Positions 51,918-55,249 of a stretch of DNA of 64,000 nt are shown piece by piece (position 1 is the stretch's first letter; every line of letters begins with the position of its first letter). The stretch is from a bacterium. GTDB taxonomy: Bacteria > Sysuimicrobiota > Sysuimicrobiia > Sysuimicrobiales > Segetimicrobiaceae. The notes beneath the pieces are model-generated. The model searched no databases. It was not told the origin of the DNA and saw only the letters and a list, made by a program, of their open reading frames with translations. Location of the stretch: NCBI GenBank assembly GCA_035308905.1, contig DATGFS010000006.1, positions 1 through 64,000 of the forward strand, given 5' to 3'. The position numbers and the translations under genes were made by a program.

Positions 51918-53603
51918 CTAGGGCAGGACGACCGCGCCCTGCGCCGCCGACCTGACGAGACGCGCGTATTTGGCGAGCGCGCCGGTCTTGTACCGCGGTT
52001 CCGGCGCCTTCCAGGCCCCGAGCCGCCGCTTGACCTCCTCGGCCGGCACGTCCAGGTCGAGGCGCCGCCGCGGCAGGTCGATCACGATCGTGTCACCGTC
52101 CCGCACGACGGCCATCGGGCCGCCGTGCGCCGCTTCCGGCGCCACGTGGCCGATCGCAAACCCCCGGGTCCCGCCGGAGAACCGTCCGTCGGTGATCAGC
52201 GCAACCTCCTCGCCGAGCCCCACGCCGCCGAGCGCGCCGGTCACGGCCAGCATTTCGCGCATGCCCGGTCCGCCCTTCGGCCCCTCGTAGCGGATCACGA
52301 GTACCTCGCCGGCGGCGATCCGCCGCGTGGTGATCGCCTCCAGCGCGTCCTCCTCGCGCTCGAAGACGCGCGCGGGACCACGGAAGGTCTCCCGCTTCAC
52401 GCCGGCCGTCTTGATGACGGCGCCTTCGGGCGCCAGCGTCCCGGTAAGCACCGCGAGCGTGCCCCGCGGCGCGATCGGGGAGGCAAGGGCGCGAACGACG
52501 TCCTGCCCGGCCGGCCGCTGCACCCCGGCCAGGTTCTCCGCCATCGTCTTGCCGGTCACAGTCATGGCGCCGCCGTGGAGGAGCCCGCCGTCGAGCAGTT
52601 CCCGCAGCACGACGCTGATGCCGCCGACGCGATCGAGATCCACCATCATGTACTTGCCGCCCGGGTGCATGTCCGCGATGTGGGGCGTCCGCCGCGCGAT
52701 CGCGTCGAAGTCGCCGAGCGCGAGCGGGACGCCGGCCTCCTGCGCCAGCGCAAGCAGGTGCAGCACCGCGTTGGTCGAGCCGCCGGTGGCCACCTCGGAG
52801 GAGATCGCGTTTTCGAACGCCTGCCGCGTCAGGATGTCCCGCGGCCGGATGCCCTCCCGCAGCATGTGCATGGCGGCTTCGCCGCTCCGCCGGCAGATCT
52901 CGGCGCGGCGCGGATCGAGCGCGGGGATCGACTCGCTGCCCGGCAGCGCAAGGCCCAGCGCGACCGAGCACGACGCCATCGTGTTGGCGGTGTACATGCC
53001 GCCGCACGATCCCGCCCCCGGACACGCGGCGCACTCGAGCTGGTAGAGCTGTTCCGGCGTCATCCTCCCCGCGGCGACCTTGCCGACCGCCTCAAAGACG
53101 TCGACGATGGACACGTCGCGGCCTTCGAACTTGCCCGGCATGATCGTCCCGCCGTAGAGAAACACCGACGGCACGTTGAGGCGCGCCATCGCCATCATCA
53201 TCCCGGGCAGGCTCTTGTCGCAGCCCGCGATGGTGACGAGGCCGTCGAAGCCCTCCGCGAGCGTCTCGAGTTCGACGGAGTCCGCGATCAGATCGCGGCT
53301 GACGAGCGACGCCTTCATGCCTTCGTAGCCCATCGAGATCCCGTCGCTGACCGCGATCGTCGTGAACTCGATCGGCGTCCCGCCGGCCGCGCGGATGCCG
53401 TCCTTGACGTGGCGCGCCAGCACGTTGAGGTGGAGGTTGCACGGGGTGACCTCGTTCCAGGACGAGGCGACGCCGATCAGCGGCTTCCGCAGGGCCTCGT
53501 CGTCGAGGCCGGTCGCCCGCAGCATCGCGCGCGCCGGGGCGCGGTTCGGCCCTTCCGTCACCGCGGCCGACCGCCGGTTCAGCTTGGAAAGCGTCTTGGC
53601 CAT
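51918..53603 (-). CDS. ilvD: dihydroxy-acid dehydratase
   Basis: A 561-residue IlvD/Edd-family Fe-S dehydratase of valine and isoleucine synthesis. Cluster-ligand cysteines are in [11 protein letters not shown] and [18 protein letters not shown], the first near residue 55 lies in VTPCNLHL. The substrate lysine region [15 protein letters not shown] and the C-terminal [15 protein letters not shown] are present. AAGGAGG precedes the ATG. No other ilv genes are in the window except, possibly, the TPP enzyme at 46192-47847. Confidence 0.95.
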
Positions 53604-53675: not shown

Positions 53676-54680
53676 TTATGTGGCCGCGCGCCGCCCGGCC
53701 TTCGGCCGGAACAACCTCCGCAGCGCCGAGCGCACCAGCAGGCCGGCGTGTAGGTCCCAGCAGTTGACGATCGCGACACGGAACCCGCCCGGCGGCATCG
53801 CGTGCTGATCGAGCGGGATCGATTCGTCGAATGTGATCTGGATGCTCGAGATGCCGTCGACCAAGCGCAGGGCCTCGACGTCTCCGGGGTCGATCGTATA
53901 CCGCCGGCCGTGCGGCGCGAACAGCGCCACGCTGTAGCCGGTGCGCCGGGGGTGGTCGCGAAACCGCCAGCGCTCGTTCGCGTACAGATCGACGACGGCC
54001 TCGAGCCAGCCCGGACCGTTCAGGTCGAGCCACTGCTCGGCCATGCGCAGATGGCACTCGATGATGACCCCGCCGATCGATTCGATGTTGATCACGCCGC
54101 TGAATCCGCGCAGGTAGCGGTCCAGCCACGCGCCGAGGTAGCGCTCGAGCACAGGCAGGGGCTCGGCCGTGACCGTCCAGTAGTCGAAGGTCCCCCCGTC
54201 CATCTGCCGGCCGATCGTGTGCCGCCACCAGCGCGCCCGTCCGCCGGCGAGCGCGATGTCGGTGCTGACGTGGCGGCCGCGCATCAGCCGCATCCACAGA
54301 TGCCCGGGGGTAAAGTGTGCTTTCATATCGTCCGCCGAGCGGACGACATACCCCTGGGCGCCCATGCCGTGCAGATTCATGATCGGCTTGCTGAAGACGG
54401 GGTAGCGCCGGGGCATCTCGCCGTGCGGTCCGTACGGCACACCCTGGCTCGCGCAGACGAACAGTTTGTCGTAGACGAGACGATGCGCGGGGTACAGCCG
54501 CCACGCGGTGGGATCGTCGACCGGCACCACGGTGCCGCGGGGGACGTGGACGCCTTCGAAGTACTGCCAGCGCCAGACGTCCACCCCGGGGAATCGGGGA
54601 CCGCCGCCCGGCGGCATGTCGCGTTGGATGTGGTGAAGCCGCAGCCGCCTCGACCGGCGGGCCGGACTTGTTGGCGTCAC
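53676..54680 (-). CDS. unknown protein resembling the ATP-grasp fold
   Basis: A 334-residue protein without a family I can name. Several stretches look like ATP-grasp enzymes. PVFSKPIMNLHGMGAQGYVV resembles the ATP-binding Lys-Pro plus glycine-rich loop. STDIALAGGRARWWR resembles the third strand set. GVINIESIGGVIIECHLRMAE resembles the G-hhhEhhhxxG-hhhEhNxR metal-binding end, with His in place of Asn. This would make it a ligase-like enzyme or a dead homologue. The GTG at 54680 overlaps the upstream carboxymuconolactone decarboxylase-type gene by four bases, so the two are coupled. An internal ATG (MPPGGG) is an alternative start. Confidence 0.55.
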   Translation of the reverse strand: MTPTSPARRSRRLRLHHIQRDMPPGGGPRFPGVDVWRWQYFEGVHVPRGTVVPVDDPTAWRLYPAHRLVYDKLFVCASQGVPYGPHGEMPRRYPVFSKPIMNLHGMGAQGYVVRSADDMKAHFTPGHLWMRLMRGRHVSTDIALAGGRARWWRHTIGRQMDGGTFDYWTVTAEPLPVLERYLGAWLDRYLRGFSGVINIESIGGVIIECHLRMAEQWLDLNGPGWLEAVVDLYANERWRFRDHPRRTGYSVALFAPHGRRYTIDPGDVEALRLVDGISSIQITFDESIPLDQHAMPPGGFRVAIVNCWDLHAGLLVRSALRRLFRPKAGRRAAT

Positions 54681-55249
54681 GCCTCGACGTCCACCTCGAG
54701 CGGCACGAGCACGCATCCGACGAGATGGTACCAGCCGACCGTCAGCGTGAGATCGACGATCTGCGCCGGGCTGAAGTGCGCGCGCAGCGCGTCGAAGGCG
54801 CCGTCCGAGGCGCGACGTGTGGTCGCGATCTCGTGCGCGTACGCCATGGCCGCCCGCTCGGCCGCGTCGAAGGCGGCACTCCCCTGCCACGCCGGGAACG
54901 CGGCCAGTTTGGTGTCCGGCACGCCCGCGCGCCGGGCGATGTCCATGTGATGCACCTGCTCGTATCGGACGCCGAGCGCGTGCGCGGTCGCAAGAATCGT
55001 CAGTTCGCGGAGCGGCGCGGGAAGCGTGCTGTCGTCGCGGATGTAGCGCGACATGCCGAGGAACGCCCGGAGGGCCGGCGGCTGGTTGGCCAGGACGCGG
55101 TAGAGGTTGAGCAGCGGCCGGCCGAGGCGCCGGACTTCGCCGAAAGCCGCCGCCACCTCGGCCTCGGCCGGCTGGGACGCCCATCCCGGTGGGGCCGGCC
55201 GGCATCCTCTTCGCGGAGTCGGATCGTCGACGTAGGGCAGTCTCGCCAT
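54677..55249 (-). CDS. carboxymuconolactone decarboxylase / AhpD-like protein without the CxxC
   Basis: A 190-residue AhpD-like protein with the family helix region LRELTILATAHALGVRYEQVHHMDIARRAGV (about residues 94-124, listed here in parts: ELTILATAHA, RYEQVHH). The redox CxxC of AhpD is absent; instead Tyr-Glu and two histidines occupy it, as in decarboxylase-like members. The ATG at 55249 gives a sensible start. It overlaps the ATP-grasp-like gene and is divergent from the alcohol dehydrogenase gene at 55371. Confidence 0.78.
   Translation of the reverse strand: MARLPYVDDPTPRRGCRPAPPGWASQPAEAEVAAAFGEVRRLGRPLLNLYRVLANQPPALRAFLGMSRYIRDDSTLPAPLRELTILATAHALGVRYEQVHHMDIARRAGVPDTKLAAFPAWQGSAAFDAAERAAMAYAHEIATTRRASDGAFDALRAHFSPAQIVDLTLTVGWYHLVGCVLVPLEVDVEA

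Follow-up and report, generated by a model that had tools for sequence, protein, structure and literature searches.

Two overlapping genes in a 64,000-nucleotide stretch of bacterial DNA, referred to here as the window, raise the question of what the larger product, a protein that bears no family name, does, and whether its neighbour, a carboxymuconolactone-decarboxylase (CMD)-family protein, acts together with it (Table 1). A reading-frame check gave 334 codons plus a stop from a GTG start for the larger gene and 190 codons plus a stop for the smaller one. The two genes share the four bases GTGA at 54677-54680, and the same GTGA with an in-frame GTG was found in both other fetched genomes of the genus (3/3; start codons inferred), confirming the four-base overlap of two real genes that an earlier note on this DNA had described. 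The larger gene is present as a single copy in the window's genome, with a dehydratase gene of the IlvD/EDD type 72 bases downstream of it and a divergent zinc alcohol-dehydrogenase-type gene upstream of the pair.

Table 1. Positions of the genes and predicted active-site features in the window, with two phage gene examples. Residue numbers are those of 53679-54617; 21 is added to count from the GTG start.
Feature	Position	Strand	Remark
IlvD/EDD-type dehydratase	51918..53603	(-)	PF00920, E 8.4e-132
Short ATP-grasp-fold protein (predicted)	53676..54680	(-)	334 aa from GTG start
CMD-family protein without CxxC, local neighbour	54677..55249	(-)	190 aa, PF02627
Linker lysine K51, putative ATP-grasp feature 1	54465..54467	(-)	start of model helix 51-57
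K77-P78, putative second ATP-binding lysine	54384..54389	(-)	end of model strand 74-78
Gly-Met-Gly loop, residues 84-86	54360..54368	(-)	alignment and model
G-x-H-x-S-x-D, residues 114-120	54258..54278	(-)	first strand of second half; alignment and model
N-x-E, residues 177-179, putative acidic metal site	54081..54089	(-)	centre of model strand 174-181
E-x-H-x-R, residues 187-191	54045..54059	(-)	end of model strand 184-189
Small S-adenosylmethionine decarboxylase gene, example	L195:4604-4945		
Small S-adenosylmethionine decarboxylase gene, example	L165:4629-4955		

Sequence-level searches gave the larger protein no name. Pfam and NCBIfam returned no match to it at E 10, no Pfam ATP-grasp family was matched at E 1 by any of 81 members of its family, and the PDB sequences yielded no match with family alignment A1 at E 10 and only three capsid-protein sequences with family alignment A2 at E 0.2. 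A search of the open literature by enzyme class, phage and neighbours, rather than by PHROG number, found no description of the family.

The earlier note had read an ATP-grasp protein from sequence motifs and had named structure prediction and profile-profile comparison as checks. AlphaFold2 with 81 sequences, phage rows included, predicted an ATP-grasp fold, with a pLDDT of 89.7 and a pTM of 0.88 for the best of five models (pLDDT 77.6-89.7). When 11 sequences were used, the best model reached a pLDDT of 71.9 and the other four 46-53, and the same class of structure matches was returned. The best 50 Foldseek matches listed were all ATP-grasp enzymes by title (E 4.8e-12), as were the best 50 listed by VIA-align (Z 20.7, rmsd 3.4, 286 aligned). 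Foldseek placed L-amino acid ligases (4wd3, 3vot) first, followed by PylC, biotin carboxylase, PurK and GAR synthetase, and pyruvate carboxylases and PurT were also among the titles from the two programs. The RAGNYA plus kinase-like fold of the ATP-grasp superfamily is present in the predicted model and in the fold matches. The 11-sequence model had its best predicted viral match in a Caudovirales protein of 197 aa that is uncharacterised (E 1.3e-8).

The predicted structure seems to lack the usual pre-ATP-grasp domain. The model has no strand before residue 62, no pre-ATP-grasp domain of the usual size was seen in it, and in the phage forms the linker lysine lies at a median position of 23, leaving little N-terminal sequence for such a domain. 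In the VIA alignments the matched range starts with residue 5 of the model and residue 6 of the chain, which means that some residues near the N-terminus are superposed on the pre-ATP-grasp region. According to the consulted part of PMC4431377, this domain is found in most ATP-grasp members and is not strict.

The profile-profile comparison did not show the ATP-grasp link. We ran hhalign against five ATP-grasp sets, namely Ddl, biotin carboxylase (BC), PurK, CarB and a Ddl-like set, and against ten control sets; the PurK, BC, Ddl and CarB sets had been named from their sequences after PF02222 and PF13535 searches. The probability to the ATP-grasp sets was at most 14% throughout, on narrow target profiles of 3 to 40 rows, and the scores were mixed against the controls. 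With the 34 bacterial rows, the five ATP-grasp sets scored 21.0-32.5 and the controls no more than 19.1; when seven phage rows were added to the bacterial ones, the scores were 19.5-21.8 and the control maximum was 19.0. With the seven phage rows alone, the best control (17.7) was exceeded by PurK (22.4), BC (21.5) and Ddl (18.1) but not by CarB or the Ddl-like set. When 104 rows were used, scores above the best control, EgtD (20.1), were obtained for Ddl (26.3), the Ddl-like set (21.6) and CarB (20.8), whereas PurK (15.2) and BC (15.7) fell below several controls. The reading of the earlier note is supported by the predicted fold and the placement of the motifs but not by this comparison; on the former two, assignment of the larger protein to the ATP-grasp enzymes is very probable.

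Motif placement was assessed against the marks listed by Burroughs and colleagues (PMC4431377). According to the consulted part of that paper, the linker carries a positive residue, RAGNYA strand 2 ends with a second one, a GbG loop is present, kinase-like strand 4 holds an acid and strand 5 closes with ExN. As far as they are set out there, these marks are matched by linker K51, K77 at the end of strand 2, G84-M85-G86, E179 in strand 4 and E187 at the end of strand 5. Conservation was counted in 34 bacterial rows, from which proteins called shorter than 280 aa (L026, L095, L096 and L097) were left out, and in 70 phage representatives. The latter were derived from 170 ORF matches in 164 of 165 contigs, reduced to 155 complete ORFs of at least 170 aa and then to 70 at 75% identity, so that shorter or split phage ORFs are absent from the counts. 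N177 and E179 were identical in all rows of both groups (34/34 and 70/70), as was R191, while E187 was kept in 32/34 bacterial and 70/70 phage rows, and K51 in 33/34 and 69/70, with Arg in the remainder. Residue 77 is Lys in every bacterial row; in the phage rows it is Arg in 64/70 and Lys in 6/70. The bacterial rows that depart at the listed key sites are L091 (D187), L101 (R51, R116, G187) and L103 (Q116). The order of Lys-Pro, glycine-rich loop and Glu-x-His-x-Arg that the earlier note had claimed was found in the sequence, at K77-P78, 84-86 and 187-191, and because N177, E179, H189 and R191 are near-invariant across bacteria and phages, this order is more than chance.

The third residue of ExN is His189 rather than Asn in 34/34 bacterial and 69/70 phage rows, so the replacement that the earlier note had pointed out is real and nearly invariant. 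However, the site is not always Asn in other ATP-grasp proteins: the PurK set from related genomes carries Glu-x-Ala-x-Arg (10/10). The consulted part of PMC4431377 likewise describes this Asn as typical and on occasion substituted. Of the other sets from related genomes, BC has Glu-x-Asn-x-Arg (5/5) and Ddl has E-x-N-x-x-P-G (40/40), so that the Arg, found in the PurK and BC sets, brings the short family closer to the type represented by PurK and biotin carboxylase. In the alignment and model, the first kinase-like strand (116-124) begins with a His and contains no invariant Arg, whereas most peptide ligases, according to the same part of PMC4431377, have a conserved Arg there.

We considered whether the protein might instead be a catalytically dead ATP-grasp fold serving as a binding protein. 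The putative hinge Glu is present in only 4/34 bacterial rows versus 67/70 phage rows, and this loss, together with the Arg at position 77 of most phage sequences, counts against an active ATP-grasp enzyme; replacement of the Asn of ExN could be read in the same way. But E179, E187, H189 and R191 are near-invariant over both bacteria and phages, and a dead fold is improbable. This near-invariance of the key sites argues for activity, and the protein is probably, on the predicted fold, an active, compact, ligase-type ATP-using enzyme, whose family is unnamed in the libraries searched and has a still shorter form in many phages.

Relatives were found in 10/11 other genomes of the window's bacterial family, the one without being 68% complete (G011), and in a sample of 386 genomes drawn around the window none was found in the 374 genomes beyond that family. 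Of 11 loci obtained by scanning genome contigs, eight were titled Alphaproteobacteria, Rhodospirillales or Rhodospirillaceae, one Proteobacteria and one Bacillota, and the last was a partial match titled Bordetella. In the class that includes the genome of one alphaproteobacterial relative (L021), 20/385 genomes had the gene, three of them already known, and in one order 6/23, all already known.

The family is also common in phages. The profile phrog_3577 of PHROG (function unknown) matched 11/11 bacterial members (best E 1.8e-10), and hhalign of a seven-row phage set to the bacterial set gave a probability of 98.7 and an E-value of 3.5e-16. The tblastn search found 45 Synechococcus phage records, the best 40 at about 28% identity (E 1e-4 to 3e-3), and a phage protein used as query matched 50 phage records, all from Synechococcus phages. 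In viral contigs, relatives were encoded in 293/388 pattern-matched stretches (80 kept) and, in a second scan, in at least 295/600 (80 kept), the overlap between the two scans being uncounted. A viral scan with alignment A1 gave no relative among 56 pattern matches, which we attribute to the choice of pattern because the A2 and A3 scans found many, and a search of plasmids gave no match. The phage representatives are 195-272 aa long, typically about 200 aa, and are without most of the C-terminal part of the bacterial proteins. In six viral contigs (L176-L181) the phage gene was matched as two separate ORFs, and the match in phage S-SRM01 was joined from two pieces.

Among proteins of known structure, the top fold matches are the L-amino acid ligases, with VIA Z values of 20.7 for that of Bacillus licheniformis (3vot), 17.5 for RizA (4wd3) and 19.3 for both BacD/YwfE entries (3vmm and 3wnz). 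In contrast to these, the window protein has no sequence match and no usual-size pre-ATP-grasp domain, and its metal-site Asn is replaced by His. The predicted fold is also that of PurK, biotin carboxylase, PurT and GAR synthetase (VIA Z 17 to 20.5), but the window protein has a shorter N-terminal part and again no sequence match to them; PurK, BC and the short family share Glu-x-x-x-Arg at the end of strand 5 and differ in the middle residue of the metal motif, Ala, Asn and His, respectively. The R2K clade (CDC123, DUF4343) is likewise described in the consulted part of PMC4431377 as a divergent ATP-grasp family with phage members, and R2K ligases occur in jumbo phages according to part of PMC7824862. 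As characterized in that part of PMC4431377, R2K has no linker Lys, and its second positive residue, Lys or Arg, sits in a loop that lacks GbG, whereas the short family has K51 and GMG. No R2K Pfam family was matched by the 81 members at E 1, and membership in R2K, as delimited there, was rejected.

Fold and residue conservation were computed, and from them we infer the reaction. It is reasonably likely that the protein is an active, stand-alone ATP-grasp enzyme, lacking the usual N-terminal pre-ATP-grasp domain, that has an open acceptor side and activates a carboxylate, most likely as an acyl-phosphate. K51 and K77 would hold ATP under the Gly-Met-Gly loop, and E179 and E187 would hold Mg2+, with H189 in the place of Asn. 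ATP would phosphorylate the carboxylate to an acyl-phosphate. In biotin carboxylase and PurK an arginine serves the acyl- or carboxy-phosphate, and R191, lying at the place of that arginine, would stabilise the same intermediate, whose phosphate an amine (or thiol) would then displace. The acceptor may be large, perhaps a peptide, protein or polymer, because no pre-ATP-grasp domain would wall the acceptor site. The AhpD-like neighbour would not be needed for such a reaction, and no conserved partner pointing to the substrate was seen among the loci examined. Two more specific explanations, a protein or peptide ligase and a small-molecule ligase, are narrower versions of the active-enzyme reading, so their likelihoods overlap with that given to it.

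The first would make the protein a bacterial branch of a phage-borne modification enzyme that acts on proteins or peptides, for which the absence of an acceptor domain and the length of the phage forms would both be suitable. Two clusters of baseplate wedge genes (one member of each tested) lie within four genes of the phage gene in 20/70 and 21/70 representative loci, and such genes are also near it in 3/4 named phage records, from three cyanophage genera. In addition, the bacterial copy at L021 (L021:4197-6897) lies one base behind a class II tRNA-synthetase-type gene, which we take to be EpmA-like, and this pair is divergent from an EF-P gene. However, no such baseplate genes were found near the phage gene in the remaining loci, where some contigs are cut, or in phage BUCT-ZZ01, and the EpmA/EF-P case is a single locus, so we regard a modifying ligase as possible but unlikely. 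Other genes near the phage form include a cluster of unknown function (L309:701-1522; phrog_1574 in the member tested), which lies within four genes upstream in 20/70 loci and has no Pfam match, and a small S-adenosylmethionine decarboxylase gene, which follows the phage gene in 3/70 loci and in Synechococcus phage S-SRM01.

Bacterial neighbours raise the second explanation, a ligase forming small-molecule amides or thiol metabolites in clade-specific clusters. A gene of the EgtB cluster (TIGR03440 in the member tested) lies directly beside the ATP-grasp gene or two genes away in six loci (L015, L016, L095, L096, L097 and L100), a CocE/S15 hydrolase gene lies directly downstream in four (L089, L090, L093 and L094), whose ATP-grasp proteins are 56-61% identical, and a Ddl-like ATP-grasp gene lies within three genes in four (L091, L093, L094 and L098). 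Yet each of these partners occurs in a minority of loci and was chosen after all neighbours had been viewed, several of the supporting loci are of common ancestry, and none of the clusters appeared in those stretches that were retrieved for the window's family, making a small-molecule ligase a tentative and rather doubtful assignment. EgtD-cluster genes (TIGR03438 in the member tested) are near in five alphaproteobacterial-type loci and CitMHS-type transporter genes in three. One or two members of each neighbour cluster were profile-tested, and the EgtB, CocE, Ddl-like and CitMHS neighbours were picked after inspection of many families; together with EgtD, they are clade-bound leads and not a universal partner. 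At L091:4601-6493, the Ddl-like ATP-grasp carries a fused SAM-dependent methyltransferase domain, and its gene lies immediately before that of the short ATP-grasp protein.

In the window's own family, the IlvD cluster adjoins the ATP-grasp gene in three genera, and in genome G001 (L026) two called genes lie between them. We read this linkage as shared synteny because it occurs in one family only and more of the neighbourhood is also kept. In a fourth genus, the ATP-grasp gene precedes genes that we take, by eye, to be secE, nusG and ribosomal genes.

The active-enzyme reading would make a testable enzyme of a protein that bears no family name and would give a predicted function class to the phage family phrog_3577 and its wider relatives, which occur in hundreds of viral contigs. 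We would advance only tentatively, with doubt prevailing, the broader proposal that this family, which has no name in Pfam or NCBIfam, is a distinct one among the ATP-grasp enzymes and that its catalytic core alone (about 200 aa in phages) ligates a macromolecular acceptor, that it is common in phages, including cyanophages, as a host- or virion-modifying enzyme, and that the bacterial proteins are a longer, cellular form with a C-terminal part of their own. If true, a catalytic core that lacks the pre-ATP-grasp domain and carries His in its metal motif would indicate how little of the ATP-grasp scaffold suffices.

As for the second gene, its product is a PF02627 protein (E 2.1e-15; 56.9 bits against a cut-off of 23), and the absence of the AhpD redox cysteines noted earlier was borne out by an alignment with two AhpD-like paralogues, in which Val and Glu occupy the CxxC columns where the paralogues carry Cys and an in-frame TGA. 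A two-enzyme pathway, in which the ATP-grasp protein ligates a product made or consumed by the AhpD-like protein, had been suggested by the overlap of the two genes, which is kept throughout the genus. However, a CMD gene adjoins the ATP-grasp gene in only 3/39 loci (427 called genes), all from the window's genus; among the 39, several loci are short or truncated where a contig ends, L025 and L026 come from one genome and L023 is a partial match. A search for the CMD gene in 9/12 genomes of the family gave best matches in two further genera, G007 (69%) and G003 (50%), that do not share a contig with the ATP-grasp gene. Because the linkage is confined to one genus and the best matches lie elsewhere in two others, the recurring linkage and two-step pathway proposed in the earlier note are not supported. 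A conserved ATP-grasp/CMD pair was rejected, the pathway is very improbable, and the CMD gene appears to be no more than a local neighbour of the ATP-grasp gene. In the consulted part of PMC8417944, the CMD gene and the ATP-grasp genes of that study are in separate clusters.

The two AhpD-like paralogues, both in the window's own genome, are L320 (G000:C32:105493-105984, -) and L321 (G000:C48:33921-34337, -). In each, a single in-frame TGA occupies the second position within a C-x-x-C-like motif. One in-frame TGA was present in 16/33 CMD match rows, its place having been checked in these two. A TGA within such a motif resembles known AhpD-like selenoproteins.
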